From Micromonospora sp. WMMD1102 (GTDB lineage: Bacteria; Actinomycetota; Actinomycetes; Mycobacteriales; Micromonosporaceae): DNA of 64,000 nucleotides. The DNA is taken from NCBI RefSeq assembly GCF_029626265.1, contig NZ_JARUBN010000001.1, positions 6,885,001 through 6,949,000 on the forward strand, read 5' to 3'. Under the pieces are notes generated by a model, which saw nothing but the letters and a program-made list of their open reading frames with translations, made no database searches and had not been told where the DNA came from. Position 1 is the first letter of the stretch, and each line of letters begins with the position of its first letter. Shown in pieces: positions 32,565 through 58,713 of this stretch. Position numbers and translations under genes: made by a program.

Positions 32565-33122
32565 TCAGAACAGCACGCTCTCGATCGGGCCGCGCAGGAA
32601 GTAGAGCACGAAGAGCGCGGCCACCCCGTACAGCAGCGGGTGCACCTCCCGGGCCTTGCCCCGGGCCAGCTTGACCACCACGAAGCTGATCACACCGGCA
32701 CCGATGCCGTTCGAGATCGAGTAGGTGAACGGCATCAGCACGATGGTCAGGAACGCCGGGATGGCGATCTCGTAGTCGGCCCAGTCGATGGTCCGCACCG
32801 CCGTCATCATCAGGAACCCGACGATCACCAGCGCCACCGAGGCCGCCTCGAACGGCACCACCACGACCAGCGGGGCCAGGAACATCGCCAGCAGGAACAA
32901 CCCGCCGGTCACCAGGTTGGCCGCCCCGGTCCGGGCACCCTCCGCGACCCCGGCGGCACTCTCGATGTACGACGTGTTGCTCGACGTGCTCGCCGCGCCG
33001 CCGGCCGCCGCCGCGATCGAGTCCACCAGCAGGATCTCCCGGGTACGCGGCGGCATCTTCTGCTCGTCGAGCAGGTCACCCTCCTGGCCGACCGCCACCA
33101 TCGTGCCCATGGTGTCGAAGAA
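32565..33122 (-). pseudogene. NCS2 family nucleobase permease, C-terminal part, disrupted by element insertion
   Basis: The frame reads FFDTMGTMVAVGQEGDLLDE just inside 33,122 and continues for about 180 residues to the stop at 32565, with about four transmembrane helices. This matches the C-terminal third of AzgA/PbuG-like NCS2 xanthine/uracil/purine permeases. The N-terminal helices and any start codon are missing: upstream of LVFFDT the frame hits a stop, and the sequence changes character. The first Met within the remnant is internal (MGTM). I infer that the integrated element split the gene here. Confidence 0.88.
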
Positions 33123-33141
33123 GACAAGTCAACATGCGCCT

Positions 33142-33161
33142 AGTAGCTCGGAGTAGCTAGG
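33142..33161. repeat. Tandem 10-bp repeat at element left end
   Basis: AGTAGCTCGG and AGTAGCTAGG are adjacent copies with one mismatch, 20 bp inside the permease break. They could be arm-type sites for an integrase or excisionase. The exact attachment core cannot be defined without the right end. Confidence 0.5.
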
Positions 33162-33252
33162 AGGTGCGCCCCGGGGTCCGGAGCAGGCACTCCTTCCCCC
33201 GGCACGACTTGACCCGCACCACTCGTCGTACACACGAGAGGAACGAACCCAG

Positions 33253-33543
33253 GTGTCATCTTCCACGACGCCCACCACGGGCAACAACACCGCCCCGCCG
33301 ACCGAGGTCGAGCGGATCGCCGCCACGATGCGGCAGACCATCACCGACAACGGCGCCGACCACGCCTACGTGTACGCCATGACCCTGATCCGCACCCTCC
33401 CCGCCGGGCTCACCGACGCCGAGCACCGGGCCAGGGTCGCCGACATCGTGGCCGGCATGGACCGGGCGTTCGCTGACCTGGCCCGTGAGCAGGACGAGCG
33501 GATCGCCGCCCTGGTCGCCGAGCGGTCGGGGGTGGCCCGATGA
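33253..33543 (+). CDS. Small phage hypothetical protein
   Basis: A 96-residue protein from GTG 33253, the first gene of the left arm. It is helical and acidic (EVERIAATMRQTITDNGADHA, then VADIVAGMDRAFADLAREQD). No recognisable domain. It overlaps the next gene by 4 bp, starting a tight string of at least eight overlapping genes. Confidence 0.65.
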   Translation: MSSSTTPTTGNNTAPPTEVERIAATMRQTITDNGADHAYVYAMTLIRTLPAGLTDAEHRARVADIVAGMDRAFADLAREQDERIAALVAERSGVAR

Positions 33544-33977
33544 CGAACCTCGTCCCCGCCAGCCCGGACCCGCGCGCCGAGCTGGTCGCCGGCCTGCGCG
33601 CCCTGGCCGACTTCTTCGAGGCCAACCCGGACATGCCGATCCCGTCGTCGCCGAAGTTCGAGCACATCGTGCTGACCGACAACGACCGGGACGGCCTCGC
33701 CGAGATGGCGCAGATCGGCCGCCTGCTCGACGTCGCCCCGATCACGTCGGCGAGCCTGCACACGAACGTCAACACCCGGTTCCGGGGTCTGGCGTACCGG
33801 GCGTTCTACGTCGCCCGTGACCGGATGGCCCAGCACCGCGAGGAACAGTCGTACGTCGACAACGTGCGGGCGGCCCGGCCGTCGGTGCTGGACGGTGAGG
33901 TCGTCACCCCGACCCGTGCCCTGCCCGCCCGGTCGTCGTCCGCGAACAGCGTTGCACTGCTGGGGGTGACCCGCTGA
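33540..33977 (+). CDS. Phage hypothetical protein
   Basis: A 145-residue protein coupled to its neighbours by ATGA-type overlaps. RAELVAGLRALADFFEANPDM at the N-terminus recalls small actinophage proteins of unknown role. There are no membrane segments or catalytic motifs. Confidence 0.65.
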   Translation: MTNLVPASPDPRAELVAGLRALADFFEANPDMPIPSSPKFEHIVLTDNDRDGLAEMAQIGRLLDVAPITSASLHTNVNTRFRGLAYRAFYVARDRMAQHREEQSYVDNVRAARPSVLDGEVVTPTRALPARSSSANSVALLGVTR

Positions 33978-34882
33978 TGGGCGTCTTCAGCGTCTCCTCC
34001 CGCGACCCGTACCCGACCGGCGGTGTGAAGCTTCCGGCGCCGCGTGCCGGTCAGCCGTCGCTGCACCAGGAGAAGACCGACGACCGGGGCCAGGGGGTCA
34101 CGGCGGACCGGCTCGTCGACCACGCCGCCGCCCTGGCGGCCGGGCACGCGATCACGTTCTCGAAGCCGGATCTCGACGTGGAGGCGTGGCACGACGCCCA
34201 CCCTGAGCAGACCGGCGACCGGCCGTCGTGGATGACCGTCCCGGACCGGCCGTGGTGCTGCGGCATCCACAACGAGACCGACAAGGGCGACGACCGCATG
34301 TGCGCCCGGACCCTGATCGAGGGTTTGCCGCTGCGGGCGATGCCGCCGATCCCGGCCGACGCCCACATGCCCCGACCGTGCCCGGCGACGCTGTCCGTCG
34401 AGGTGTGGCAGATGCCCGGCGCCGCCGAGCCGATGGTGATCCTGTCGGCGTCCCTCGGCCACTGGGAGCATCGGTCGCTGCGGTTGACGGTCGGTGAGGC
34501 TGTCGACCTGGCCGGGAAGATCCTCCGGCACGTCGAGTGGGGCGAGCAGCCGTTGCCGCTGTCCCCGCCGCCGGCCGGTTCGCCGTCGTGGCAGAAGACG
34601 GCGTGCCCGGTGTGGGCGGACTGTGACCACCGGGAGACCGAACTCGTCGGCGACCGGTTCCACCGCACGGCCGCCGGGTCGATGGTGAAGGTCGATCTGT
34701 CGCTGGACGGGTTCGACTCGTTCGTCGAGGTGTCGCTGGTGCAGGACGAGCAGTCGGCGGAGTCGAAGGTGGAGCTGTCGCACTGTGACCGGCAGTTCGC
34801 GGACCTGCTGACGGGTGAGGCTCGGATGCTGGCGGCGAACCTGCTGCGGGTGCCTGCCCTGATCGTTGGCGGTGCCCGATGA
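33977..34882 (+). CDS. Phage protein with two Cys/His motifs, DUF6907-like
   Basis: A 301-residue protein with two related segments. The first has a PWCCGIHN motif at about 93-100. The second has ACPVWADCDHRE at about 208-219, followed by VKVDLSLDGFDSFVEVSLVQ and a terminal helix ending the motif unit. The second resembles DUF6907, a small Cys-rich domain common in actinobacterial and phage hypothetical proteins. Paired Cys/His sites suggest metal binding. It overlaps both neighbours. Confidence 0.6.
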   Translation: MGVFSVSSRDPYPTGGVKLPAPRAGQPSLHQEKTDDRGQGVTADRLVDHAAALAAGHAITFSKPDLDVEAWHDAHPEQTGDRPSWMTVPDRPWCCGIHNETDKGDDRMCARTLIEGLPLRAMPPIPADAHMPRPCPATLSVEVWQMPGAAEPMVILSASLGHWEHRSLRLTVGEAVDLAGKILRHVEWGEQPLPLSPPPAGSPSWQKTACPVWADCDHRETELVGDRFHRTAAGSMVKVDLSLDGFDSFVEVSLVQDEQSAESKVELSHCDRQFADLLTGEARMLAANLLRVPALIVGGAR

Positions 34883-35226
34883 CGATCACGCCCGTTCGGC
34901 CCGCCGACCTGGCCACGCCGTGCCAGCCGTGGTGCGGGGACGACTGCCAGTCCCGGATTCCCGGAATCGAGCACCACACCGGCCCCGTGACGACCGTCAA
35001 CGGCGGCACCGACACCGACCCCGCGTTGGGTGTCTCGGCCCGGGTGGAGCGGTACGACCTGGCCGACGCCGAGGGCATCGACCCGGGAGAGCCGTACATC
35101 GCCGTACAGGTCGGCGAGTGGGACTTGCTGGCCGAGAGTGGCCTCCTGACGGCAACCCGGGCACGGATGTTCGCAGCCGAACTGCTCGCCCTGGCCGACG
35201 CCGCCGAGTCGGAGGCTGCGCGATGA
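34879..35226 (+). CDS. DUF6907-like small protein
   Basis: A 115-residue protein. CQPWCGDDCQSR, then IEHHTGP, then a beta region and the terminal helix TRARMFAAELLALADAA give the same layout as the C-terminal half of the preceding gene. It is probably a paralogue. Function unknown; possible metal site. Confidence 0.6.
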   Translation: MTITPVRPADLATPCQPWCGDDCQSRIPGIEHHTGPVTTVNGGTDTDPALGVSARVERYDLADAEGIDPGEPYIAVQVGEWDLLAESGLLTATRARMFAAELLALADAAESEAAR

Positions 35227-35801
35227 CGATCACCGTTACTCCGGTAACGGTCGGGCAGGCTGCCGTCGGGGCTTCGGTCCCGGCGGTAGCCGCCGCCCCG
35301 GCCCTGCCGGAACCCGACTGGTGCCTGTGGACCCCGTGCACCCCCGACCGGCACGACGGGTCGCGGATGCACATGTCCCCGGCGGTCGACGTGCCCACCG
35401 CCGCCGGAACCGGCCTGCTCGACGTGCGCCTCTGCCAACTCGACGAGGAGACCGAGGCCGGGCAGACGCAGGTGTCCCTGAACGTCGGCCGGAACCTCGG
35501 CAGCATGGCGGACCTGACGCCGGAGCAGGCGTTGGTGTTCATCGAGGTCGTCCGCGACCACCTGATGACCGCCGCCGGCCCGGCCGGTGTGCCGATGCCC
35601 GTCGAGCGGGTCCGGCTCGGTGACGAGCTGCTGACCCCGGACGGCAACTGGGAAGTCGTCGAGATCGTGGACGTGGACGGCTGGCTGTACGAGGGCCACC
35701 CGTCGGCGGTGTCGATCAACACTGCCGCGCACAGCGAGGACGAGGAGCACTACCGGTACCCGATCGGCACGCCGGTCCGCGTGCGTAAGGCGGTGTCGTG
35801 A
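35223..35801 (+). CDS. DUF6907-like protein with C-terminal extension
   Basis: The ATG at 35223 overlaps the preceding stop and gives 192 residues. DWCLWTPCTPDRHDGSRMHM is a variant of the Cys/His motif, followed by a beta region and a helix (LTPEQALVFIEVVRDHLM). About 70 more residues form a separate beta-rich domain with GDELLTPDGNWEVVEI. It is the third relative in a row. Confidence 0.6.
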   Translation: MTITVTPVTVGQAAVGASVPAVAAAPALPEPDWCLWTPCTPDRHDGSRMHMSPAVDVPTAAGTGLLDVRLCQLDEETEAGQTQVSLNVGRNLGSMADLTPEQALVFIEVVRDHLMTAAGPAGVPMPVERVRLGDELLTPDGNWEVVEIVDVDGWLYEGHPSAVSINTAAHSEDEEHYRYPIGTPVRVRKAVS

Positions 35802-36049
35802 TGACCGTCCTGATCAAGCGGCGGACGGTGAAGAACCGGGCGTACGAGCTGCACGACGCCGACCAGCCCAACGCGGGCGCTTTCGCTATCGCGATGCGCA
35901 GCGCCGATGGGTGGAAGGTCGCGGCCCGTGGCGGCCGGATGGTCGGCGAGCGGCTGGACGGCCGCACGGCGGCGGCTCTGGCGACGCGTACCGCGCACGA
36001 GCAGATCCACATGGGTGCGGTACGGGCTCTGCTGGGAGGTGCCAAGTGA
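35798..36049 (+). CDS. Small phage hypothetical protein
   Basis: An 83-residue basic protein; GTG 35798 or ATG 35801 can serve as start, and both overlap the preceding stop. It contains RTVKNRAYELHDADQP and a helical C-terminus. No domain recognised. Confidence 0.55.
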   Translation: MMTVLIKRRTVKNRAYELHDADQPNAGAFAIAMRSADGWKVAARGGRMVGERLDGRTAAALATRTAHEQIHMGAVRALLGGAK

Positions 36050-36468
36050 AGGTTCGGATCATCGGCACCGAGCGGGAGATCGAGGTCGGGGAGCACCTGC
36101 TCCGTGACGGCTTGGACGTCACCGACGTCCACCACCGGCAGTCCCGGAACCACGGCACCCCGATGGCGTACCTCCAGGCCGACATCCCGGCCGAGGCGCC
36201 GTACCTGGTCGTCACCCCGCCGTTCCGGATGAAGACCACGATCCCCGCCGAGCCTGTCGAGGCCCGGCAGGTCCGGCCGACCGACCTGGTCCGGGCTGAG
36301 GACGGCGGATGGATGCGGGTCGTGCGGGTCATCCCCGACCCGGTCAGCGAATCGACGGCGGCGGTGTTCATCGACGTCGTTCCGAACGTGCGGCCGACCC
36401 GGTGGGCGTTGAAGGTCGACGCCCTGCTGGTGCGGCGGCGTCTGCTCGATCGGGGGGACTGGGAGTGA
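36046..36468 (+). CDS. Phage hypothetical protein
   Basis: A GTG at 36046 overlaps the preceding stop and gives 140 residues, starting VKVRIIGTEREIEV. Beta-rich, with a late segment repeating the DLVRAEDGGWMRVVRV-type pattern also seen in the neighbour ending at 35801. No known function. Confidence 0.6.
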   Translation: MKVRIIGTEREIEVGEHLLRDGLDVTDVHHRQSRNHGTPMAYLQADIPAEAPYLVVTPPFRMKTTIPAEPVEARQVRPTDLVRAEDGGWMRVVRVIPDPVSESTAAVFIDVVPNVRPTRWALKVDALLVRRRLLDRGDWE

Positions 36469-36647
36469 GGCTCGTACTGAGTGGCCTGCCGTCGGAGGTG
36501 GCGGCGGCGAAGGAGCTGGTGAAGCGGACGTTCGTGGTGTGGCGGGCCGACTCCCGGCCGATCCGGTCGAGCAGTGCCGCCACTCCTGACTACGTGACCG
36601 TGTACCTGAACGTCAGCCTGCCCGGCGGGACGGGAGACAAGTCGTGA
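36465..36647 (+). CDS. Small phage hypothetical protein
   Basis: A 60-residue protein from GTG 36465, overlapping the gene before (GTGA) and after. It begins VRLVLSGLPSEVAAAKELV and contains VTVYLNVSLPG. The beta-alpha-beta feel is weak and no family is recognised. Confidence 0.5.
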   Translation: MRLVLSGLPSEVAAAKELVKRTFVVWRADSRPIRSSSAATPDYVTVYLNVSLPGGTGDKS

Positions 36648-37564
36648 CCGAGGAGGAGCCGAACTTCATCGCCCGGCACCTGCGCTGGCCGGCACTGGTC
36701 GCCGCCGTGGCGCTCACCGCGAAAGGTGAGTACGACCTGGCTCGGATGGCGCACTACGGCGAATGGATGGCAGTCCTATTCCCGATCTCGATTGATGTGT
36801 ATTCGGCGGCAGCATTCCTGCGCCACCGCACGGGGGATGTCCTCGCCGGGTTGGCGTTGATGATCGGCTGTCAGATTGCCGTTCACTTGCTCCCGCTCCA
36901 CATCACCGGCGAAGAGAAGGTGCCGTGGGGGTTGGTGATTGCGATCTCGTGCATTCCGCCGATCGTGGCGTGGCGGGCGCACGCGCTTGGCACCAAATCT
37001 CGGGCGGAAAAGACGAAGCCGGAACCGTCGATCGCCGAGCCCGTATCTGGCATGCCAGACATCGACGCGACGGACGTTGACGTACGTGATGCGTCGTTCG
37101 ATCCGTGGTCGCTCGCCGAGCCGGCTCGTGACGCATCCCTGCCAGTCCACGCGGATGCATCACTCGGTGACCCGTTCGACGTACCGGCGATGCGTCACCC
37201 GATGCCGGAGGTGACGCGTCACGACACGCCCGCCCTGCCGGCCAGTGACGCACGGCTGACGTACCCGGCACTGACGCATCCGGCCCGCCGGACGGTGACG
37301 CACCGGATCAACGGCAGTGACGCGTCACCCGGCGACGGTCCGGACGGGTCCGAGGTGACGCGTCAGCCGGAGCCGGTGAAGACGCGTCGCGGTCCGAAGC
37401 CGGGCAAGGACGAGCGGATGGCCGAGGTACTCCGGCTCGTCGAGGAGGACGGCATGTCCGCCCGTGCGGCGGCGAAGAAGGTCGGCATCGACGAGCAGGC
37501 GGCCCAGCGGTACGTGCGGAAGCACCGGACCAACGGCCACACGGTGGGAGGTCACGGTGCGTAA
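36644..37564 (+). CDS. DUF2637-like four-helix membrane protein with C-terminal helix-turn-helix
   Basis: A 306-residue protein from GTG 36644. The first ~110 residues hold four hydrophobic helices (WPALVAAVALTAKGEYDLAR, then WMAVLFPISIDVYSAAAFL). This resembles the DUF2637/Spd-type membrane proteins encoded beside tra genes on Streptomyces conjugative elements. The middle is Asp/Ala/Thr-rich and carries the TGACGC DNA array. The last ~50 residues include MAEVLRLVEEDGMSARAAAK, a helix-turn-helix. I infer a role with the translocase two genes on. Confidence 0.65.
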   Translation: MTEEEPNFIARHLRWPALVAAVALTAKGEYDLARMAHYGEWMAVLFPISIDVYSAAAFLRHRTGDVLAGLALMIGCQIAVHLLPLHITGEEKVPWGLVIAISCIPPIVAWRAHALGTKSRAEKTKPEPSIAEPVSGMPDIDATDVDVRDASFDPWSLAEPARDASLPVHADASLGDPFDVPAMRHPMPEVTRHDTPALPASDARLTYPALTHPARRTVTHRINGSDASPGDGPDGSEVTRQPEPVKTRRGPKPGKDERMAEVLRLVEEDGMSARAAAKKVGIDEQAAQRYVRKHRTNGHTVGGHGA

Positions 37565-38286
37565 CCTCAACCCCTTGAGGACTCAACCCCTTGAGTCCCC
37601 GGAGAACCCGCCTCAGACGGTCGCCAAGGACCGGGAGACGGCATCTCCCCCGGCATCAACCCCCTTGACTTCTCAACCCCTTGAGAGTCGACAGAGCGTG
37701 ACCGAGAAGGCGGCCGGAACCCGGCGGGGGAAGAAGCCGAACCCGCTGCTCGACCCGCCGATCCTGATGACCGCGATCATGCTCCTGGCCGTGCTGGAGA
37801 TGGCGCTGTGGGCCGGCGTCGGCTGGCTGTGGTGGGCGGTCATCAACGCGGTGGCGGCCGTGATCGTGTTCGCGGCCCTGTTGGCGTGGCGCCGTCGCGG
37901 GAAGGGCGGTCTTCTCGATCGTCTCCTCGGTACGTCACGTCGGCCGGGTGCGTCATCCCGGTCTGGTGCGTCACCCAAGGGCGCGTCATCGAAGAAGCCG
38001 GGCGGTGCGTCACGGAACCCGCTGAGTCGCCTCCTGAACCCCAAGGGTGCGTCACGTCCGCGCGGTGACGGATCGGGGAAGAAGCCGGGTCTGCTTGACG
38101 CACTGCGGGGCAAGCGGCCGGGTGCGTCACGAAAGCCGGCCGGGTCCGGTGATGCGTCACGGCGGAAGCCGGGCGGGTCGGGTGACGCATCGGGGACGCG
38201 TCCGAAGAAGTCGAAGCTGTGGCCGTTCGGTGGCAAGAACCGGCCGGGCAAGTCGGGCGGGTCGAAGCCGTCGGGTGACGCGTCAC
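37129..38286. repeat. Array of TGACGC/GCGTCA motifs, candidate translocase recognition locus
   Basis: I count 21 TGACGC or GCGTCA hexamers between 37129 and 38286, where random sequence at about 70% G+C would give roughly one. The first cluster (37129-37365) includes the 12-bp palindrome GTGACGCGTCAC at 37211 and 37317. The second (37948-38160) has seven co-oriented GCGTCA copies, most as GGTGCGTCA, and another palindrome lies at 38275. The copies fall in different reading frames of two genes, so they are not a by-product of one peptide repeat. Confidence 0.8.
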
Positions 38287-38963
38287 GGTCGGGGAGTTCT
38301 CCATCCGGCAACCGGAAAGGGCCGGGCCGGAAGAAGAAGCCGGGCTTCTGGGATGACCTCCGCAAGGGATTCAACGACAAGCGGACCGAGGACAAGAAAC
38401 GCGACGGAAAGCGCGACGAGAGCAAGAAGGAAAGGCCGGAGAAGGCGACCAACCCAACCCCCGCCGATCCGGAACAGGTGTCGGACAAGCCCGCACCGAA
38501 ACAGCACAACGAGAAGCGGGCCGCACCGGCGCCGCAGCGAGGAAAGGAGACACCCATGGGAGTTCGACACGAGGACGACGCCAGCCTTCAGAGGTGGGGC
38601 CGGAACCTGCGGTCCGTTGCCCCGTCGATCGACGAGCTGGCGACGACGGCCCGGCAGCAGGGCGACATCGTGGAGGCCATCGCTACCGGGATGAAGCGGC
38701 TCGCCGACCAGGGCGAGAACGACCTTCCGGCGAGCAAGGCGCTGACGTCGGAGGCCGAGGTGATCGCGGCCGAGCTGCGGAAGATCCGCGAGGAGGACGA
38801 CGATCGGGCGAACCGGCTGCGGGCGTTGGCGGCCCGGTCGGAGGCGCTGGCGGCCCGGTACGGCCAGGAACACGAGGTCGATGAGGCGCGGCTGGCCGGT
38901 GAGCGTGGCGGCCGGGCGCGGGAGAAGCGGGCCGACGTTTCGGCGGCCGAGCAGGACACCTGA
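37557..38963 (+). CDS. Spd-like membrane protein with basic low-complexity region
   Basis: A GTG at 37557 preceded by GGGAGG gives 468 residues and overlaps the gene before by 8 bp. Two hydrophobic helices lie at about 64-105 (LMTAIMLLAVLEMALWAGVG and WAVINAVAAVIVFAALLAW). A long Lys/Arg/Gly/Ser-rich basic stretch (about 110-270) follows, then a charged helical C-terminus with coiled-coil character (EAEVIAAELRKIREEDDDRA). The layout, helices then basic region, recalls SpdB-type spread proteins of Streptomyces conjugative elements, which bind DNA and partner TraB. That assignment is by architecture only. Confidence 0.65.
   Translation: MRNLNPLRTQPLESPENPPQTVAKDRETASPPASTPLTSQPLESRQSVTEKAAGTRRGKKPNPLLDPPILMTAIMLLAVLEMALWAGVGWLWWAVINAVAAVIVFAALLAWRRRGKGGLLDRLLGTSRRPGASSRSGASPKGASSKKPGGASRNPLSRLLNPKGASRPRGDGSGKKPGLLDALRGKRPGASRKPAGSGDASRRKPGGSGDASGTRPKKSKLWPFGGKNRPGKSGGSKPSGDASRSGSSPSGNRKGPGRKKKPGFWDDLRKGFNDKRTEDKKRDGKRDESKKERPEKATNPTPADPEQVSDKPAPKQHNEKRAAPAPQRGKETPMGVRHEDDASLQRWGRNLRSVAPSIDELATTARQQGDIVEAIATGMKRLADQGENDLPASKALTSEAEVIAAELRKIREEDDDRANRLRALAARSEALAARYGQEHEVDEARLAGERGGRAREKRADVSAAEQDT
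37566..37685. repeat. Three perfect CTCAACCCCTTGAG repeats plus one variant
   Basis: The 14-bp unit CTCAACCCCTTGAG occurs at 37566-37579, 37582-37595 and 37672-37685, with a variant TCAACCCCCTTGA at 37656-37668. Each unit has inverted arms CTCAA and TTGAG around CCCC. They lie inside the first codons of the Spd-like gene and look like binding sites for a regulator of this operon or for a replication protein. Confidence 0.75.
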
Positions 38964-38970
38964 CCTGTCC

Positions 38971-39006
38971 GGGGTGTCCCGTGGTGTACACGCTGCGGGG
39001 CACCCC
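38971..39006. terminator. Hairpin between Spd-like and translocase genes
   Basis: GGGGTGTCCCG (38971-38981) pairs with CGGGGCACCCC (38996-39006), 11 bp with one G-U pair, around a loop holding the palindrome GTGTACAC (38984-38991). There is no T-run. It could attenuate transcription into the translocase gene or be an operator. Confidence 0.5.
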
Positions 39007-39041
39007 TGCCGGGTTCGTGGCCAGGAAGTGAAGGGGGTTGG

Positions 39042-41192
39042 GTGATGCGGAGTCGAAGCGGCGCGGTGTGGGTGCCGATGTGGATGCTGTTGGCGGTGCT
39101 GCTGGTGGTGGCGATCCGGCTCGGGTTCGCCCCGGTCGAGTGGTGGATTTCGCTGGTTGCCGGTCCGGTGATCGGTGTGCCGGCGGCGGTGGTGGTGTCG
39201 TTCGCGACGGACAAGCCGTGGGCGTCCGTTCACCGGTCTGCCGTGGTGCTGGCCGGGTCGGTGTGGGTGGCGTTCGTGGCGAAGACGGGTGCGGTGCAGT
39301 GGGCGGCCGTCAGCCTCGGCGCCGTGGGTGCGTTGTTCGCGGCGCTTGAGTTCGCGGTCGCCCGGAACCGGGTGATCGTGGAGACGATCCCGAACCTGCC
39401 GGACGTCGACCGGCGGCCGTCGGCGGTCCGGGAGTGGGAGGCGATGCTTCAGCGTCTCACCAAGACGAGGAAGAAGAGGGGTGAGGCCGAGGAAGACTGG
39501 GAGTGGTCCCAGCTCCGGGTCTCCGCCGTGACGCCGTGGCCGGACCGGACCGCCGGGGAGCAGGTGCACCTTGATCTGCCGGAGGGAATGACGGTCAAGG
39601 ATCTGGCAGGGCAGACCGACAAGATCGCAGGCGCCCGACGTCTTCCCGCCGGCTGCGTCGTCCGCGTGTTGGACGGGCCGCACCAGGGCGCGGCGATCCT
39701 CGACGTGATGCTCCGGGACTGCCTCGCCGGTGACGGCCGGCGGATCTCGGAGCCAACCGACAAGGTGTCGATCTATGACGAGTTCGACATCGCGACGACC
39801 GCCCGGGGCGAGAAGCTGGACGTGTCGCTGCGGGAAGACTCGATGGTGGTCGGCGGCACCACCGGGTCGGGCAAGACGACGTTCCTACACCGGGTCATCA
39901 TGCGGATGGCCCGCTGTGTGGATGCCCTGATCTGGATCGTTGACCCGAACGGCGGCGGTGTCGCCGCCCCGTGGATCGGCCCGTGGGCGCGCGGCGAGGC
40001 GTCGAAGCCGACGGTTGACTGGGTGGCGGAGGACGAGTACGAGGCTGCTGCCCTGGTCGCTGTCGCTACCGCGATCGTGAAGGACCGGAAGACGAGCCCC
40101 GAGGCCACGGCTCGGATGCGGGCGGCGAACACGACCGTTCTTCCGGTCGACGCGAAACTCCCTCTGATCCTGGTAATCACCGACGAGGGCGGTGAGCTGC
40201 GGCAGATGGCCGGACTGATTTCCAAGATCGTGGATGAGGGTATCGCCCGGCTGGCGCAGATCGGCCGAGCCCAGGGCGGCCGGGTCATCATGTCGGTGCT
40301 GCGCGGCACCGGGGACCTGCTCGGGAAAGGGCTGCGCACCGTCGCTTCACTGCGGTTGTGTCTCCGCATGGACGAGGAGGACGAGTACACGTACGTCCTC
40401 GGGGTGAACCCGGGCCGTGCCCGGCTGCTGCACATGGGGTCGGCGTACGTGTACCGGACGAAGGTCGACTACCGGCCGGTTCTGGCCCGGACGGTGGACG
40501 TCGACATCGCCAGCATCGAGCGGCACGCCATCGCAACCGCGCACCTGCGCCCGGACCTCGACGACCGGGGCAAGCGGGTGGCGGCCGGGGTTCGGGTTCA
40601 GGATGTGCTCGGTGGTCGGGATGCCGACGGCTTCCCCGAACTGCGGCGACACCCGGTGTTCCGGGACCTTCGGGATGGGCTGGTGTACGCGAACCGGTGG
40701 AAGCGGAAGGCGGCGATGCTGGCCGAACTGCGCGGCGAAGAAGTGCCGGAGGATGACCGGCCGGCGGAGCCGCCCGCGTTGGAGCGGCCGACGGTGGCGC
40801 CGATCGGCAGCGCGACGGAGCGGTTCCTGATCGGTACCGGGGTGACGTTGGAGCGGCAGCGTGCGCGGGCCGAGGTGACGTCAGGCGTCCAGGATCGGGC
40901 ACCCGACAGTGGCATGGACGCGGAGGCGGAGCGGCTGCTGTCCGAGGCTCACCTGAAGCTGGACGGCGTACCGGGTGATCGCAGCAAGCCGGAGAACGCC
41001 CGCGAGTGGATCGAGCTGGTGTTGCGGGACGGGTACCCGGACATGATGACCGCCGCCCAGGTCCACGCGCAGATGGGCGAGCAGGGTGTCGAGGTGTCGT
41101 ACCAGCGGGTTTATGACCTGCTGAAGTCGATGGCGAAGGCCGGCGGCAAGGTGCGGCAGGAAGGGAACAGGTACGAGCTGGTCCGCGAGTAG
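39042..41192 (+). CDS. FtsK/SpoIIIE (TraB)-type DNA translocase
   Basis: A 716-residue protein. The N-terminus has about four transmembrane helices (residues 8-110). The motor has Walker A GTTGSGKTT with Lys278 and Walker B LILVITDEGG with Asp381-Glu382, and shows the FtsK-like segment VIMSVLRGTGDLLGKGLRTV. A C-terminal winged helix (about 665-714, AAQVHAQMGEQGVEVSYQRV) resembles the DNA-recognition gamma domain of FtsK and TraB. TraB proteins of Streptomyces elements move double-stranded DNA between hyphae after recognising 8-bp repeats. It follows two Spd-like genes. ATG 39045 is an alternative start. Confidence 0.85.
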   Translation: MMRSRSGAVWVPMWMLLAVLLVVAIRLGFAPVEWWISLVAGPVIGVPAAVVVSFATDKPWASVHRSAVVLAGSVWVAFVAKTGAVQWAAVSLGAVGALFAALEFAVARNRVIVETIPNLPDVDRRPSAVREWEAMLQRLTKTRKKRGEAEEDWEWSQLRVSAVTPWPDRTAGEQVHLDLPEGMTVKDLAGQTDKIAGARRLPAGCVVRVLDGPHQGAAILDVMLRDCLAGDGRRISEPTDKVSIYDEFDIATTARGEKLDVSLREDSMVVGGTTGSGKTTFLHRVIMRMARCVDALIWIVDPNGGGVAAPWIGPWARGEASKPTVDWVAEDEYEAAALVAVATAIVKDRKTSPEATARMRAANTTVLPVDAKLPLILVITDEGGELRQMAGLISKIVDEGIARLAQIGRAQGGRVIMSVLRGTGDLLGKGLRTVASLRLCLRMDEEDEYTYVLGVNPGRARLLHMGSAYVYRTKVDYRPVLARTVDVDIASIERHAIATAHLRPDLDDRGKRVAAGVRVQDVLGGRDADGFPELRRHPVFRDLRDGLVYANRWKRKAAMLAELRGEEVPEDDRPAEPPALERPTVAPIGSATERFLIGTGVTLERQRARAEVTSGVQDRAPDSGMDAEAERLLSEAHLKLDGVPGDRSKPENAREWIELVLRDGYPDMMTAAQVHAQMGEQGVEVSYQRVYDLLKSMAKAGGKVRQEGNRYELVRE

Positions 41193-41205
41193 GCGGAAAC
41201 GAGAG

Positions 41206-41237
41206 GAACCCCCGGCCCGATGTGGGCGCGGGGGTTC
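41206..41237. terminator. Terminator hairpin between translocase and convergent small gene
   Basis: GAACCCCCG (41206-41214) pairs perfectly with CGGGGGTTC (41229-41237) around a 14-nt loop, followed by TTCC. It lies 14 bp after the translocase stop and before a convergent gene, so it can end transcripts from both sides. Confidence 0.75.
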
Positions 41238-41251
41238 TTCCGTGTCTGGGG

Positions 41252-41515
41252 TCAGCCGACGGCCTTGAGGAACCTTTCGACGGCGCTGCCCGGCTTCGGT
41301 ACGAACTTCGGCCGGGGCTGGTCGGCGGCCGGCTGGTCGGCGGCAGCAATCCGGGCGTTGGCGCGTACCGCGTCGGCGATGCCCTCCTCGACGGCGGCAC
41401 GAACCGCGTCCGGGTCGGCGCCGAGCCGGATCGCGGAGTCGGCGGCGTCTCGTGCGCGCCGGGTGTACCGGGCTGCGATGGCGTCGTCGCTGTCCATGTC
41501 TCCACCATCGCACAC
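41252..41515 (-). CDS. Small acidic phage hypothetical protein
   Basis: An 87-residue frame; the more likely start is the ATG at 41497 (MDSDDAIAARYTRRAR, 81 residues). Helical, Ala/Asp-rich, with a Pro/Lys-rich segment near the end. It is convergent with the translocase gene. No domain recognised. Confidence 0.5.
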   Translation of the reverse strand: MCDGGDMDSDDAIAARYTRRARDAADSAIRLGADPDAVRAAVEEGIADAVRANARIAAADQPAADQPRPKFVPKPGSAVERFLKAVG

Positions 41516-41584
41516 GGGTGCGACCTCGATCCAGTACCGACAGAGGGGTGGGAGCTAATCTCCCACCCCTCTACGCTTGGAGGT

Positions 41585-41797
41585 ATGACGGTGGTGTCAG
41601 TCCACGACGTCGCGGCCGAGATCCGGCGGCGGCTGCCCGGTGTCGACGAGCAGAAGCTTCACGCCCTGCTGTACTACTGCCAGGGTCACCACCTGGCGCA
41701 CACGGGCGAGCCGCTGTTCCGTGAGGAGATCGTCGCCGCGCCGGCCGACTTCTGGGACACCGACCGGGCGTCACTCCCGCCCGTCGTCGGCGGGTAG
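41585..41797 (+). CDS. Truncated SocA/Panacea-like (DUF4065) protein
   Basis: A 70-residue protein from ATG 41585. VHDVAAEIRRRLPGVDEQKL, then HALLYYCQGHHLAHTGEPLF, is the N-terminal helical part of the Panacea (SocA-like, DUF4065) antitoxin domain. Full-length members have about 150 residues or more; here the frame stops after PADFWDTDRASLPPVVGG. It may be a decayed toxin-antitoxin or phage-encoded counter-defence gene. The last 27 bp overlap the convergent gene. Confidence 0.6.
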   Translation: MTVVSVHDVAAEIRRRLPGVDEQKLHALLYYCQGHHLAHTGEPLFREEIVAAPADFWDTDRASLPPVVGG

Positions 41798-42004
41798 CCC
41801 GGTACGCCGCACCTGTTCCGCCTCGGCCGGGGTGCCGTAGCAGTGCCCATGCTGACAGCCGTCGGGGTCACCGCACGGGTTCCGGATCAACCGGCCCGGC
41901 TGATCCCGCACGATCCCGACCAGTTCAGTCGTCAGCCGGGACTCGTCCACGATCCGCTGCGCTTCCGCCGCCTGCTCCGGGGTGTGCCTTCGTGGCCTGG
42001 TCAT
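41771..42004 (-). CDS. Small phage hypothetical protein with Cys motif
   Basis: An ATG at 42004 overlaps the stop of the XRE regulator (ATGA), giving 77 residues starting MTRPRRHTPEQAAEAQRIVD. It has NPCGDPDGCQHGHCYG, a Cys/His cluster able to bind metal. It is coupled to the regulator gene and overlaps the convergent Panacea-like fragment. Confidence 0.6.
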   Translation of the reverse strand: MTRPRRHTPEQAAEAQRIVDESRLTTELVGIVRDQPGRLIRNPCGDPDGCQHGHCYGTPAEAEQVRRTGLPADDGRE

Positions 42005-43206
42005 GAGCCCAACGCTACCCACGGCCCGTCACCGGCCGCCGCGTACCCGCGCAGCTCGTCCAACTCGGCCGACCGGTACTGCGCCGGGACGGCCCGGAGC
42101 AGGTCCGCGACAGCGACGCCGACCGTACGAACCGGCGTCGGGAGCGCCCGGACGGCTGTCAGTGCGTAGGCGATCCCGTCGGCGACGTCACCCCGCCGGA
42201 CCAGCGACAGGCCGTAGTACACCTGGGCTTCGCGCCACCACACCGGCACCGACCGAAGGATCGGCTCCGCCGTCTGCCACGCCTCGTCCGCCGTCGTCGG
42301 GGTGCCGACCCGGGCTTCCAGGTAGTGAGCGAAACTCACAGTCCGCGCCGTCGGCCCGTCCGGTCCGCTGTCCGGCAGCCGCTCGGCGACGTCCAGCATC
42401 CCGCCCAACGCCCGCCTACCGCCGGCCAGGTCCTCGGCGAGGGCGTGCACGTGCACCAGCGCCGAATGCGCTTCCAGGGCGCCGAGAGATGGCCGGTTCG
42501 AGATCCCCAACGCACCGTTGGCCCGGTCGATCGTCTCCCGCAGCGTGTACCCCTCGAAGATGCCCCGCGAGGCGGTCCGGGCTCGGACGAACACCCGCGA
42601 CGGGGTGTCGCCGGACCGGTCGGCGAGCATCGCCGCCGTTCGGTACCAGCCGTGCGCCGACGTGACGTCGTTCTGGTTGCCGCACCACAGGCCGTACAAC
42701 TGGGTGAGGAGTCCGGCCGCCCGCAGCAGCTCCGGCGTCGCACCCCTGGTGATGATCTGCTGCTGCGCTATCGCCATCTGACCGGCGAGCGCCACCCCGT
42801 ACGACGGGGACGGGTCGACGACGAGGCGCCGGGAGTAGTCGGCGACGACCTGGCCCCAGTCTTCGACGTTTCCGGACGCGTCGAGCAAACCCTGTCGGAT
42901 GAGTTCGGCGACGACGGTCGCCCCGGCGATCCCGACGGTTCCGGTCGCTGCGGTCAGGGTGGTCAGGAGTGCGCGTCGTCTCATGGCCTGGTCCTCTCCG
43001 TCGAGTGCGATGAGGACCGTGAGCAGCGGCGTTGTCCCCAACGCTCGGTCGCATGCTGCGGCGAACTCGGGTAACGGTCGCCGCTCCCCAGTCTCTACAT
43101 AGCTGATCTGCGACGTGCTGTAGTGGGTGCGGGCGGAGAGTGCGCGCAGGCTGACGCCTGCGGCCTCTCGTAGTGATTGCAGCACCTCTCCGAAGCTGTC
43201 ACCCAT
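42001..43206 (-). CDS. XRE family transcriptional regulator
   Basis: The ATG at 43206 gives 401 residues; the frame continues upstream without family resemblance. The N-terminal helix-turn-helix (about 4-60: FGEVLQSLREAAGVSLRALS, then HYSTSQISYVETGERRPLP) is followed by a hydrophobic stretch at about 75-100 and a long helical, TPR-like region. Actinobacterial regulators of this build are widespread and their ligands are unknown. It lies between the two arms, divergent from the next plus-strand genes, so it is a candidate lysis-lysogeny or transfer regulator. Confidence 0.85.
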   Translation of the reverse strand: MGDSFGEVLQSLREAAGVSLRALSARTHYSTSQISYVETGERRPLPEFAAACDRALGTTPLLTVLIALDGEDQAMRRRALLTTLTAATGTVGIAGATVVAELIRQGLLDASGNVEDWGQVVADYSRRLVVDPSPSYGVALAGQMAIAQQQIITRGATPELLRAAGLLTQLYGLWCGNQNDVTSAHGWYRTAAMLADRSGDTPSRVFVRARTASRGIFEGYTLRETIDRANGALGISNRPSLGALEAHSALVHVHALAEDLAGGRRALGGMLDVAERLPDSGPDGPTARTVSFAHYLEARVGTPTTADEAWQTAEPILRSVPVWWREAQVYYGLSLVRRGDVADGIAYALTAVRALPTPVRTVGVAVADLLRAVPAQYRSAELDELRGYAAAGDGPWVALGS

Positions 43207-43438
43207 GGTGCGGCCCTGTCTGTGGACGGTTGTGGACGCGGGGTGGCTCCCTACGCACGGTAAGTGCGTGAAGGCTGTTGGGCAAGGATGCGGGATCGTT
43301 CTCCCCCGGACAGGCCCGTATCCGGGTGGCGCTCCGTCCCCCGTGCGGGGTGCCACCCACCCCTAGCGGGTGCGGCGGCCGGTCGGCACGGCAGAGGGCA
43401 TCGGCCGTCGCACCTCCCCCGACTGGCAGGGAGGGACG

Positions 43439-45032: not shown

Positions 45033-45395
45033 TCAGGATCGTGCGGCGGGCGAGGCGCTGGCGATTCCGTTGTCGGACACCGCCGGGGCGAACCCGACAC
45101 CAGCAGCGGTCAGCCCGGCGAGCAGAAGCGCGATCCACTCCTGCCCGTCGAGCCCACCGAGGATCGACGTCGCCAACACCTGCAACACGCCGAGCACCAC
45201 CGCCACCGCCGTCTTCGCCCACCGGTATTGGGGTGCCAGCGGCACCAGATACACCCCTACCGCCGTCGCGGCGGCAATCGCGATCTGTACGCCCTCTTCC
45301 GGGTCGACGTGCTGGTTGCCGTTCAACGCCCCGTACGCGGCCACCAGGGCAGCGCCCGCCACGGCGGCGAGCGCCTTACCGTACTTGCGGATCAT
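45033..45395 (-). CDS. Holin-like membrane protein
   Basis: A 120-residue protein with about three hydrophobic helices: an N-terminal one (KALAAVAGAALVAAYGAL), one near 38-55 (IAIAAATAVGVYLVPLAP) and one near 62-80. The size and helix count fit actinophage holins, which form pores that release endolysin. It is the last gene of the minus-strand late module, in the lysis cluster. Confidence 0.65.
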   Translation of the reverse strand: MIRKYGKALAAVAGAALVAAYGALNGNQHVDPEEGVQIAIAAATAVGVYLVPLAPQYRWAKTAVAVVLGVLQVLATSILGGLDGQEWIALLLAGLTAAGVGFAPAVSDNGIASASPAARS

Positions 45396-45410
45396 GTGAC
45401 CCTCCTCAGG

Positions 45411-45785
45411 TCAGGGTGCCCGGCCGTTCGACGACTGGCCGGGGTCAACAGATACGAGCTGCTTCAACCGCTCCGAAGCGCCCGGGTCGGCCAGGATCTC
45501 GGCACGCCACAACCGCATCCGGGCGATCAGCCCGTCCACCTCGTCGGACAGGATGCGGACCTTCATCCGCGCCTGGTCGGCGGCCTGTTCCGCCTCGGCC
45601 GCCCGACGTTCGGCAGCGGCGGTCCGCTCCTGTAGCTCGTCGACCTGCCGCACGGCGGACTCGGTCAGCTTCACCACCGCGTCGGCTCGAATCGACGGCC
45701 GGTTGAACAGGCCGGACAGCAGTGACCCGAGGAACCCGGAGATCCCGCCAGCGCCGAGAACCATGCCGACGATCTGCCAGTTCAC
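45411..45785 (-). CDS. Membrane-anchored coiled-coil lysis-region protein
   Basis: A GTG at 45785 overlaps the preceding stop (GTGA) and gives 124 residues. One N-terminal hydrophobic helix (VNWQIVGMVLGAGGISGFLG) is followed by a heptad-rich region (VDELQERTAAAERRAAEAEQ). This shape recalls phage lysis accessory proteins, but the identity is unproven. Confidence 0.6.
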   Translation of the reverse strand: MNWQIVGMVLGAGGISGFLGSLLSGLFNRPSIRADAVVKLTESAVRQVDELQERTAAAERRAAEAEQAADQARMKVRILSDEVDGLIARMRLWRAEILADPGASERLKQLVSVDPGQSSNGRAP

Positions 45786-46192
45786 GGCGTCTTCTCCATC
45801 CGCCGTAGCGACCGAATGTCCTGCTGCACCTGCCAGCAACGCCACCCCGAAGCCGCCGCCCAGGTGAGGCAGAACGCGCCAGCGAACAAGGCGGTCGCCT
45901 GGCCGGTCGCGAGCAGGGCCACCCCGTACATGGTCGGGGCGGTGACGTGGCCGACCATCGCCGCCCGCTCGTACACCAACGCCCGGTACAGGTCGGAAAG
46001 CAGGAAGCTGATCAGGCCGACGACACCGGAGGCCAGCAGCAGCCCATACCAGGTCCACAACACCCAGAGGTCCATGAGGCTTTCGAGGGTGCCGGGTGGT
46101 TTCGCGCCGGCCACGAACGCGGCGCCGGTCACGGCCGAGAAGCCGAGGAACAGCACCTCGTGTGGTCGGTGTCGGCCCGTGACGACGAGCAT
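45782..46192 (-). CDS. Multi-pass membrane protein, holin-like
   Basis: A 136-residue protein with about four hydrophobic segments, starting after a short polar N-terminus (MLVVTGRHRPHEVLFLGFSA). It lies between the endolysin and the coiled-coil gene, so it is a second holin candidate. No family recognised. Confidence 0.6.
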   Translation of the reverse strand: MLVVTGRHRPHEVLFLGFSAVTGAAFVAGAKPPGTLESLMDLWVLWTWYGLLLASGVVGLISFLLSDLYRALVYERAAMVGHVTAPTMYGVALLATGQATALFAGAFCLTWAAASGWRCWQVQQDIRSLRRMEKTP

Positions 46193-46195
46193 GGG

Positions 46196-47050
46196 TCAGT
46201 CCCGCATCCGTGCTGCGTGGTCGTCGTTGACGGCCTTCGCCAGGGCGTTGATGAAGGCGGTGTTCCCGGCGAGTTCGGCGGCGAGGACAGCGGCGTCGAC
46301 CGGCGCCGGCTGAACCTGCGGCCGGGCGGCGAGCGCGTCGATCCGGTCCGCGAGTGGCTTCAGGAGCGCGTCCACCGTGCGCTTCGCTTCGCGGGCAGTC
46401 GACTCGCCCATGCCGTAGTCGTTCGACGGTGGGGTGCCGGTCTGCGCGGCGACCATCCAGTCCCGCACGCCCAGCAGCGCGTCTCGTCTACTCATGTCGT
46501 CCTCTCCGGTCTTCGTCGAGTTGCCCAGCGCGGCATTGACCGAACTGAACAGCTTGTCCCACGGGAAGTTCGACCCCGGGTCGGTGTGGGTGGTGCCGCC
46601 CCAGGCGCGACGCATGTCGTCGTGGCCGTAGAACGCCCGAACCTTCGGGTTGTTGCGCATCTCGGCGACACTCGCCCGCCGGACCGCCACCCCGTACTTG
46701 CGGACGACGTGGGCCAGGGCGGCGCCGAGCTTGTCCCAGGCGACCCGGTCGAGCCACTGCTGTCGGGTCCAGCCGTTCACACCCGTGATCTCGACCGCGA
46801 CGGCGTGGTTGTTGCCCTCGCTGCTGCCGGCGTGCCCGGCCCGGTCCTCGGTGTCGAGAGACTGGACCACCGAGTCCCGGTCGACGTACAGGTGGGCCGA
46901 GATGCCGTCGGTGCGCCGGGTGGCGTAGCTGGCCTCCTGTTCGGCGGTGGCGTCGTTGCTGGTGTTGTGGATCGCGACGCCGTACTTGCGGCCGTCAGAG
47001 TCCGAGTAGTCGTTGCGGCCCTGCACGTAGGGCACCCCGGGGATACGCAT
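46196..47050 (-). CDS. Endolysin, N-acetylmuramoyl-L-alanine amidase (Amidase_2)
   Basis: The ATG at 47050 gives 284 residues. The N-terminal amidase fold (about 1-165) has the zinc ligands His28 (AIHNTSND), His155 and Asp157 (THTDPGSNF), and the catalytic Glu region VEITG near 88. The C-terminal third is helical and acidic, with no recognisable wall-binding repeat. It cleaves the bond between muramic acid and the stem peptide to lyse the host. It overlaps the toroid-like gene upstream by one base (TGATG). Confidence 0.9.
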   Translation of the reverse strand: MRIPGVPYVQGRNDYSDSDGRKYGVAIHNTSNDATAEQEASYATRRTDGISAHLYVDRDSVVQSLDTEDRAGHAGSSEGNNHAVAVEITGVNGWTRQQWLDRVAWDKLGAALAHVVRKYGVAVRRASVAEMRNNPKVRAFYGHDDMRRAWGGTTHTDPGSNFPWDKLFSSVNAALGNSTKTGEDDMSRRDALLGVRDWMVAAQTGTPPSNDYGMGESTAREAKRTVDALLKPLADRIDALAARPQVQPAPVDAAVLAAELAGNTAFINALAKAVNDDHAARMRD

Positions 47051-47991
47051 CAGAGGGCCGCCGTCATCGCTCGGGCGCCGTAGTAGGCGATCTGTGCCAG
47101 CCGGCCGCCCAGCGGTGCCGGCGGGTTGGCGATCCACGCGTCGAGTTCGGGCATCCACTGCTCGACCAGGTCCGCCCAGAGGGTTTGGCCGGTGCCGGTG
47201 ACCGACATCGCCGCCGGCCCGCTTGCCGGCAGGCTGACCAGTCGCAGCCGGGCGAGCGGCGCCATGGCGTTGTCGCTCTGCGGGTTTGCCATGTGGTTGT
47301 AGACCGCCTCCCGGCCGATCCAGTACGCCAGCCGGTACATGGACTCGGCGGAGTACGAGTTGTGGTCGACGTCCTGCCCACCGCCAGTGCTACCCGCGTA
47401 CGGCCACCACTTCGTCGCCGGCCGGTAGCAATCGACTTCGTGGCAGGTGATGTCGGCGATGAGTCGGTGCATCCCCGACTGCGAGATTCCGGCCTCGGCT
47501 GCCTGTGCGAGGAAGCTTCCGGCGCCCGCGTTGACGTTGTGGACGTTCTTGTTGGACCCGGTCCGGTCCGCGAGGGTGGTCGAGTAGGCGACACACTGGC
47601 CGTGGGTGACCGACACCCGAGGCATGCCGACGAGGAAGTTGACGCACTGCTGCACCAGGGCCCGGGGTACCACTCCGGCCTGCCAGCCGGCCAGCAGGGT
47701 CGGGCCGACGTGCCCCGCTACGGTGACCGCGTAGCTGGTGCTGGCCGGGTTGACCGACCCGTCCCCGAACGAGTCGGCGGGGCGGTTGAGTCCCCAGCCG
47801 CCGTCGGGGTTCTGCAAGGCGAGAACCTTGTCGAGGTAGCCGGCCGTCCAGTCGTGGTCCCAGCCGTACATCGGCCCACAGGCGCCCGCCATCAGGCTGT
47901 ACGCCATCACGCCCTGCGCGCCGTCGTCGAGCTGGCGGAACCGGCTGACCGCGTCATCGGTCCGCTCGTACCAGCCGTTCGCGTCCACCAT
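47050..47991 (-). CDS. Putative alpha/alpha-toroid protein in tail-lysis region
   Basis: A 313-residue protein. VLALQNPDGGWGLN, then VNPASTSYAVTVAGHVGPTL and AESMYRLAYWIGREAV, give the hydrophobic spacing and QNPDGGWG signature of alpha/alpha-toroid repeats found in terpene cyclases, protein prenyltransferases and some polysaccharide lyases. No catalytic DxDD motif is seen. It lies between tail-fibre genes and the endolysin, so a role in surface-polymer degradation or receptor binding is plausible. Such a fold in a phage tail region is unusual. Confidence 0.6.
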   Translation of the reverse strand: MVDANGWYERTDDAVSRFRQLDDGAQGVMAYSLMAGACGPMYGWDHDWTAGYLDKVLALQNPDGGWGLNRPADSFGDGSVNPASTSYAVTVAGHVGPTLLAGWQAGVVPRALVQQCVNFLVGMPRVSVTHGQCVAYSTTLADRTGSNKNVHNVNAGAGSFLAQAAEAGISQSGMHRLIADITCHEVDCYRPATKWWPYAGSTGGGQDVDHNSYSAESMYRLAYWIGREAVYNHMANPQSDNAMAPLARLRLVSLPASGPAAMSVTGTGQTLWADLVEQWMPELDAWIANPPAPLGGRLAQIAYYGARAMTAAL

Positions 47992-48003
47992 CAGTCCACC
48001 TCC

Positions 48004-48534
48004 TCACGCGCTGAAGTAGAAGCCGTACATGCCGAAGCTGTGCCCGTTGGCGAAGGTGACCGGGGCGGTCGGCGTCCAGCCGGACAGCGGCTCAGAGGTC
48101 AAGTTGTCGCGGTACACCGTCACCTCGGTTGCCGAGCCCGACACCGTGCTGACCCAGCCGACGAACCGGTAGAGGCTGCTGCCCATCAGCGCGGACGCCT
48201 GGAGCAGCGGGTGCGGGCCGCCGGAGACGGCGGCGACCGGGAGGGCGAACTTGTAGTTGCCGCTGCCGAAGGTGGTCGTCGAGCCGGGGACCAACTTGAT
48301 ACGGACGGCGACCATCAGCGGGTCGACCTGTCGCCACTTCCCTTCCAGGGTGCCGTTACCCAAGACGGGGTTGGTCAGTGACCCGGTCCAGGTCGGGGTG
48401 TACGTCGTCCAGGCCGGGTTGGCGATGTCGTCGACGTCGTCGTTGATGTCCTCGGCCAGCGTTTCCAGGTGCTCCCAGATCCGGGTATGTCCGGTGCTGG
48501 CCGGGTAGGTGTAGCCGCGTCCGGTGGTGGGCAT
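48004..48534 (-). CDS. Phage tail fibre/appendage protein
   Basis: A 176-residue protein beginning with the actinophage tail-appendage pattern (GRGYTYPASTGHTRIWEHLE, then LAEDINDDVDDIA). The rest is beta-rich with Gly/Ser/Thr repeats and ends GMYGFYFSA, typical of a trimeric fibre tip. It follows the two baseplate-region genes. Confidence 0.7.
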   Translation of the reverse strand: MPTTGRGYTYPASTGHTRIWEHLETLAEDINDDVDDIANPAWTTYTPTWTGSLTNPVLGNGTLEGKWRQVDPLMVAVRIKLVPGSTTTFGSGNYKFALPVAAVSGGPHPLLQASALMGSSLYRFVGWVSTVSGSATEVTVYRDNLTSEPLSGWTPTAPVTFANGHSFGMYGFYFSA

Positions 48535-48537
48535 CGA

Positions 48538-53093: not shown

Positions 53094-53102
53094 GACCCCC
53101 TC

Positions 53103-53557: not shown

Positions 53558-53563
53558 GGCCTC

Positions 53564-54324: not shown

Positions 54325-54333
54325 CGGTGTCTC

Positions 54334-55070: not shown

Positions 55071-55071
55071 G

Positions 55072-55458: not shown

Positions 55459-55481
55459 GTCGCCGCTCCCTCTCTGGTGGC

Positions 55482-58634: not shown

Positions 58635-58713
58635 GTGTAGATCATTGCAGCACGGCAACTATCTGCCAAACAGATGATCCGGCCGGATGACCTTTTTTGA
58701 GCAAGACTTTCGG

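Follow-up and report, generated by a model that had tools for sequence, protein, structure and literature searches.

Short repeats beside genes for FtsK-type Tra translocases are known from the clt or TRS loci of the Streptomyces TraB plasmids pSVH1, pJV1 and pWTY27, where Tra itself binds the repeats: TraA of pWTY27 was demonstrated to footprint a clt with four TGACACC copies, and TraB of pSVH1 is cited as reading 8-bp repeats through its helix alpha-3 (excerpts of PMC3583192). Another kind of target belongs to the Spd region of pIJ101, whose DNA-binding protein SpdA2 recognizes sps, two to three copies of the 12-bp palindrome CGTCACGTGACG inside its own coding region; this small protein (~14.7 kD), for which the excerpted text mentions no membrane anchor, affects plasmid stability, not transfer (PMC4170104). 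According to the introduction of the same paper, SpdB2 of pSVH1 is an integral membrane spread protein that binds DNA, reportedly non-specifically, and interacts with TraB; the introduction adds that none of the predicted Spd proteins is similar to any protein of characterised function (PMC4170104). What Spd proteins do in Streptomyces-type conjugation, and how the plasmid reaches the pore, is largely open.

The locus described here lies in a 64-kb stretch of Micromonospora sp. WMMD1102 DNA (the window hereafter; positions 6885001-6949000 of an 8.67-Mb contig, in an 8.92-Mb genome of eight contigs). Like the clt/TRS loci, it holds a cluster of short repeats near the gene of an FtsK/SpoIIIE-type Tra; unlike in those plasmids, the repeated word is untied to the Tra C-terminus, and judging from a comparative test only, the winged helix of Tra probably does not set repeat specificity. 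As with sps, the proposed targets lie inside the coding region of an Spd-region protein, which, going by covariation, may bind them, but they amount to 22 short sites over two genes, and the protein is a predicted membrane protein with a C-terminal helix-turn-helix (HTH). The sites are 8-mers, and the 12-bp palindromes that some of them form differ in sequence from CGTCACGTGACG. The likeness to SpdB2 is drawn from its description, not from homology, and it ends where we propose an HTH with a matching array in place of non-specific binding.

The mobile element and its transfer genes

Judging from a contig junction and an integrase gene near its right end, the locus belongs to an integrated mobile element of 37 kb, which begins at 33118, runs to the end of the window at 64000 and continues for 6.3 kb to ~70344 (extended numbering), and which encodes an integrase, an FtsK/TraB-type transfer module and a phage head-tail module. 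Contig C3 (20,191 bp) consists of extended positions 59040-70344 followed by 33118-42009, at 100% identity and with a 6-bp overlap. It thus holds the end-to-end junction that either excision of the 33118-~70344 element as a circle or its presence in tandem copies in the sequenced culture would produce; since C3 is possibly just a contig of reads spanning the junction, we claim no 20-kb plasmid. The right-end ORF matches an integrase at 2.2e-62 and is read as serine type because it also matches a DNA invertase (4.2e-14). Together with Tra and a primase/polymerase (2.6e-69), the element thus encodes the genes by which actinomycete integrative and conjugative elements (AICEs) are defined, namely an FtsK-type Tra, a prim-pol/replication protein and a site-specific integrase (excerpt of PMC3218068). 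On the minus strand at 45033-60180, six genes match PHROG families (terminase at 7e-43, portal and major head in one ORF, tape measure, two tail proteins and endolysin), and the terminase, portal, capsid, tail and lysis genes of a prophage are present, as judged from genes alone. Its gene content suggests a combination of an integrative conjugative element and a prophage.

The presence of an FtsK-type conjugation module and of phage head, tail and lysis genes within one element (33118-64000 of the window) is an observation in its own right, as is a single 1050-aa ORF (55482-58634) with hits to the PHROG families of both the portal and the major head protein. Eight phage records encode distant relatives of Tra, including Streptomyces phages ZL12 and Hiyaa and Thermobifida phage P1312; searches of viral contigs with the window Tra and with that of another locus, L068, found no relative.

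Three plus-strand genes make up the region around the repeats. Gene 1 (36644-37564), whose product we propose as reader of the array, is predicted from Pfam, an AlphaFold model and hydropathy to encode a membrane protein. In the model (eight-sequence alignment; mean pLDDT 54), membrane-like helices at residues 8-123 are followed by an unstructured stretch at 124-254 (pLDDT <50 at 119-249) and a C-terminal three-helix HTH at 255-298 (pLDDT ~85 over 261-290), the codons of which occupy 37406-37537 according to the structure models and an alignment with the HTH of locus L118. Predicted alone from the single sequence, the HTH reaches a mean pLDDT of 78; its match to Pfam HTH_23 (9e-5, 22.6 bits) falls under the cutoff of 24.6, and a fold search with its model returned no match at E 0.001, the best matches (E >0.1) including homeobox, DeoR-like, sigma-factor and KorA HTHs. 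Two relatives taken from protein sequence alone, P0122 (86%) and P0123 (67%), retain the HTH of the window. Gene 2 (37557-38963, with an uncertain start at 37557 or 37698) encodes hydrophobic segments at residues ~62-113 and then a very basic linker. Downstream, 39042-41192 encodes Tra, an FtsK/TraB-like translocase with N-terminal hydrophobic segments by hydropathy, which matches PF01580 at 1.3e-6 (28.5 bits, above the cutoff of 24) and NCBIfam plasmid_TraB at 4.3e-5, far under that model's cutoff. The initial annotation had taken this product for a TraB-like protein whose winged helix recognizes the repeats; the FtsK/TraB-like assignment held, as did a winged-helix-like C-terminus (40995-41189, its fold and limits judged by eye on an alignment), and the part of the claim that found no support is the reading of the array by that helix, as detailed below.

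An array of TGACGCRY sites under DNA-level selection

Between 37129 and 38285 we counted 22 TGACGC/GCGTCA hexamers (10 TGACGC and 12 GCGTCA) in 1.16 kb, against 28 in the remaining 62.8 kb of the window and 4190 in the whole 8.92-Mb genome (0.47 per kb). At this density ~0.5 hexamers would be expected, so that the array is ~40-fold enriched; the observation of a dense array, first put at ~21 copies, is confirmed, and the counts in the window and genome-wide rule out chance or a general property of the genome as its origin. All 22 sites extend to TGACGCRY, compared with 6 of the 28 hexamers elsewhere in the window; with the flanking bases taken in, the consensus becomes GTGACGCRYC (17 of the 22 have G at -1, and 20 have C at +8). 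Singly the 8-mers are non-palindromic, and three pairs of them make the perfect 12-bp palindromes GTGACGCGTCAC that the initial annotation had also reported (37211-37222, 37317-37328 and 38275-38286); the genome holds seven, three in the array, three on C3 (the same element) and one elsewhere.

The sites form two clusters of 11, ~0.59 kb apart and opposite in majority orientation. Array A (37129-37365, plus strand; TGACGC prevails 7:4) covers approximately codons 162-241 of gene 1, and array B (37950-38285, minus strand; GCGTCA prevails 8:3 on the plus strand) lies in gene 2, where the encoded residues comprise 27 K+R vs 5 D+E; with A in the disordered linker and B in the basic one, both arrays occupy linker codons. 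Altogether the sites lie ~0.76-1.9 kb upstream of tra. By position, the longest co-oriented run comprises six sites (37360 to 38049), five of them within the second cluster, and not seven as had been claimed. A pattern of three TGACGC in a row matched 23 times in the genome, 14 times in the element or its C3 copy; the other nine matches fall at five chromosomal places, three of which read as tandem repeats. In a blind search for three TGACGCRY in a row, 70 of 354 family genomes matched; among the matches listed, most are short tandem repeats by eye, and five non-tandem-looking stretches taken from four of the genomes hold at most five TGACGCRY per 1.5 kb.

An array inside genes might be the by-product of repetitive linker peptides, and there are indeed signs of this: 8 of the 11 gene-2 sites read Ala-Ser in one frame, and every site falls in one frame at the related loci L069, L106 and L108. 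The sites of gene 1, however, occupy all three frames (as Asp-Ala, Val-Thr, Leu-Thr, Thr-Arg, Arg-His and Ala-Ser), as do those of gene 1 in L118, and the remaining three sites of gene 2 read Asp-Ala in a second frame. Synonymous-codon shuffles that kept the peptide gave means of 3.9 sites in gene 1 and 2.9 in gene 2, compared with 11 observed in each, and none of 5000 shuffles per gene reached the observed count; because the word was chosen from the same DNA, these shuffles test a peptide origin, not the discovery itself. Retention of RY in every site also speaks against a peptide repeat, as does the use at frame-0 sites of TCA, a rare serine codon (3% of serines across the remaining predicted genes). 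On the shuffles and the frames we reject a peptide-level origin, which we hold to be very improbable, and the data support selection on the array at the DNA level, as the initial annotation had argued from the different frames. In 23 gene-1 ORFs of relatives, the ORF's own word, picked from the same DNA and then shuffled, likewise lay above synonymous shuffles, and in 20 of the 23 none of 2000 shuffles reached it.

Array word, gene-1 HTH and Tra among relatives

Searches with Tra provided 53 further loci, or 54 including the window, with some duplicates or near-duplicates (L033=L043, L034=L067, L035=L071, L049=L050, L054=L056=L085). A strong word cluster near tra (best 1.5-kb stretch, log10 p < -20) was present in 19 of the 54, the window among them, and stretches far from tra, in loci long enough, went no lower than a log10 p of -14. 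The words vary by element (CCGTACG, CGCCCCG, CCGCTAC, AAGCCGAA, CGGCTCA, GCGGAGA and others). A separate search with gene 1 found its membrane domain in 18 of 354 family genomes (our own and 17 others); among the 20 loci fetched from it, 12 (L106-L117) have GCGGAA- or CGGAAG-type words. Seven more (L119-L125) lack an array, their best log10 p ranging from -2.7 to -5.9, and their gene-1 relatives end in what by eye resembles an HTH. The remaining locus is L118, described below.

Several of these loci are worth recording in themselves. The genome studied here encodes a second, distant Tra (27% identity) at L076 (C2:68001-88000, on a 131-kb contig), with its own word array, GCGGAGA, in the gene upstream. 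In Thermobifida phage P1312 (L054, L056, L085), an ORF downstream of tra, with hydrophobic stretches at its C-terminal end by eye, carries a CCGGACC-type array of nearly uniform orientation. At L048, ~20 word copies between -948 and -447 relative to the Tra ORF mostly keep a tandem register of 15 bp, which sets this repeat apart in kind from the dispersed arrays.

We compared 40 loci, 32 of them with a usable Tra C-terminus, for whether the word follows Tra or the gene-1 HTH. No Tra end was entered for L035 (truncated), L080 (frame lost), L051 and L058 (unclear ends) or L115-L118 (none taken), the gene-1 C-terminus of L114 was unreadable, and for the first 28 loci HTH boundaries and words were chosen by hand. 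Ends were called similar at z >12 and words shared at a cross-enrichment S >7 (looser, S >5). Among pairs similar in HTH and dissimilar in Tra, 18 of 32 shared the word (19 at the looser cut-off), compared with none of the 40 pairs similar in Tra and dissimilar in HTH (two, L068/L074 and L044/L045, at the looser one). Pairs similar in both shared it in 10 of 11 cases at either cut-off, and pairs similar in neither in 5 of 413 (11 at S >5). In 1000 label permutations the HTH-only shared pairs reached 11 at most, and the Tra-only shared pairs averaged 2.7 and were zero in 57; as permutation yields as many of the latter, Tra similarity carries no excess over chance. Thirteen of the 18 HTH-only sharing pairs fall inside L106-L113, where the word is often single-frame, and without L106-L117 the counts are 2 of 4 for HTH-only and 0 of 40 for Tra-only pairs. 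The positive signal therefore leans on the L106-L113 cluster and has few independent lineages, and since the gene-1 HTH is physically linked to array A, part of the covariation can be plain inheritance.

Individual loci illustrate the pattern. L038 and L059 have CGCCCCG and the gene-1 HTH in common and differ in their Tra ends, the Tra helix of L038 being that of L036, L037, L061 and L089-L091, whose word is CCGCTAC. The same word and HTH type with different Tra ends recur in L076/L081 (GGCGGAG) and L077/L109 (CGGAAGA), and GCGGAAA tracks the HTH in L112 and L113 vs L106-L108 and L111, again with different Tra ends. A further candidate, L069/L077, has words that align (z 12.0) but stays under both cut-offs (z 11.6, S 4.0), so that L077/L109 was taken instead. 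Conversely, near-identical Tra helices go with different words in L053/L055 and in L076, L077 and L078 (GCGGAGA, CGGAAGA and CCGACCG, the L078 cluster being weak). There are exceptions: similar HTHs with an unshared word at S >7 in L040/L037, L046/L082 and several pairs of L069 or L077 with L106-L112; a low sharing score for L050/L084, although their words had aligned; and CCGTACG shared by L047/L057 and L075, where no HTH gene 1 was identified.

The window had fixed the word beforehand for L118, a locus from another genus. Its gene 1 is homologous to that of the window, since the membrane-domain codons can be aligned as DNA (73% over 125 bp), and its HTH is related (SARAAA..AVQR; z 12); among the readable HTH ends of the fetched loci (all except L114), this HTH type is confined to the window and L118. 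Gene 1 plus 1.6 kb of L118 holds 30 TGACGC hexamers, 24 of them TGACGCRY, out of 38 in its 15 kb, and among the loci compared only the window and L118 elements have at least six TGACGCRY in 1.2 kb. Array B of L118 lies not in a relative of gene 2 but in a MobF/TrwC relaxase gene (TrwC 2.7e-48), the ORF directly after gene 1, and a 12-protein Tra panel gave no match to an FtsK-type Tra in the 15 kb at 1e-3. Gene 1 has 17 sites vs a shuffled mean of 5.2, and the first 300 relaxase codons 13 vs 3.3, none of 5000 shuffles reaching either count. Word and HTH thus stay together while the adjoining transfer enzyme is exchanged, and array B has a different host gene in each element, which simple inheritance of gene 1 does not account for.

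These comparisons bear on who reads the array. If it were a clt/TRS locus, the C-terminal winged helix of Tra would read it and Tra would load there to pump double-stranded DNA, as the oriented short repeats near an FtsK/TraB gene, the pWTY27 and pSVH1 precedents and the frequency of word clusters near tra would all suggest; yet no Tra-only pair shares a word at the stricter cut-off, near-identical Tra helices stand beside different words, and L118 carries the same array with a relaxase in place of Tra. On this covariation we reject the Tra winged helix as reader, a role that it probably does not have and to which we assign a low likelihood. A search for the same motif beside homologous translocases, as the initial annotation had proposed, shows a word that differs between Tra loci and does not track the Tra C-terminus; of the proposed recognition locus of the translocase, what survives is the resemblance of the array to a repeated site for protein recognition within a module of conjugation type. 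A third protein might instead read the array, be it the gene-2 product, an XRE-type regulator or a host factor, with the gene-1 HTH merely travelling along. Gene 2 hosts array B within its very basic linker, an XRE-type regulator is encoded at 42001-43356, and the ORF at extended 67893-68813 is XRE-like by eye; against such a reader, L118 keeps word and HTH with array B in the relaxase ORF, and a repressor operator would not be expected to consist of dozens of sites inside genes and in both orientations. We consider a third reader unlikely, and favour the gene-1 protein.

Two further features of the loci concern layout. Opposite orientation of arrays A and B is a tendency and not a rule: of 30 loci, 11 have no array B, and of the other 19, 13 are opposite and six are not, the 13 including several close relatives and L118, which is barely opposite (12:5 vs 6:7). 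Between the arrays, at the start of gene 2, lies a second cis element of four TCAACC(C)CCTTGA palindromes in a 2+2 arrangement (37567-37578, 37583-37594, 37656-37668 and 37673-37684). L042, L064 and L046 show this quartet pattern too, and L033 has three copies; the Tra helices of these loci are alike by eye, and their array words, where found, differ. L068, L073, L074 and L035 (the last with a truncated Tra end) have four GGTGACTCACC-type sites spaced by 14/68-69/14-15 bp, and L038, whose array differs from that of the L037 group, nevertheless has that group's GACTGCAGTC blocks. By sequence comparison, the central palindromes thus appear to go with the gene 2/Tra group, not with the array word, and they may be the operator of the tra operon or the true Tra site, a clt candidate; as an operator explains the Tra-group pattern equally, we do not take them for an established Tra site.

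A putative docking site at the membrane

The array is probably a set of binding sites for the gene-1 membrane HTH protein, a docking element at the membrane. The TGACGCRY sites of array A sit in linker codons of gene 1 and those of array B in linker codons of gene 2, stretches whose peptides would tolerate them; many copies of the gene-1 protein would bind the 22 sites through their C-terminal HTHs and hold a 1.2-kb stretch of the element against the membrane. The docked DNA would then adjoin the transfer enzyme encoded alongside, the FtsK-type Tra here and the MobF relaxase in L118, and docking may place the element for transfer, spread or segregation. RacA and Noc are DNA-binding proteins that tie clustered chromosomal sites to the membrane or pole. 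We use them as a working analogy only and claim no sequence relation; their sites are chromosomal, whereas here the protein is element-encoded with sites in its own gene.

More tentatively, and with somewhat less than even confidence, we suggest that self-addressed docking proteins may be widespread in actinobacterial plasmids, integrative elements and phages. Each would carry its own HTH and a matching array in its own linker codons, with a word that diversifies together with the HTH as an identity tag, in a cassette portable between FtsK-type and relaxase-type transfer; two arrays, often inverted, would flank paired palindromes in one membrane nucleoprotein complex that presents the element to the transfer machine. 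Judging from titles and the beginnings of abstracts, we found no description of such arrays in the open-licence papers searched. Repeats beside tra genes should accordingly not be called clt before their reader has been checked. A membrane HTH protein with a matching DNA word would offer a direct test of DNA docking in a process where the part played by Spd proteins is still to be defined, and the naturally diversified protein-word pairs would form a set for studies of recognition.
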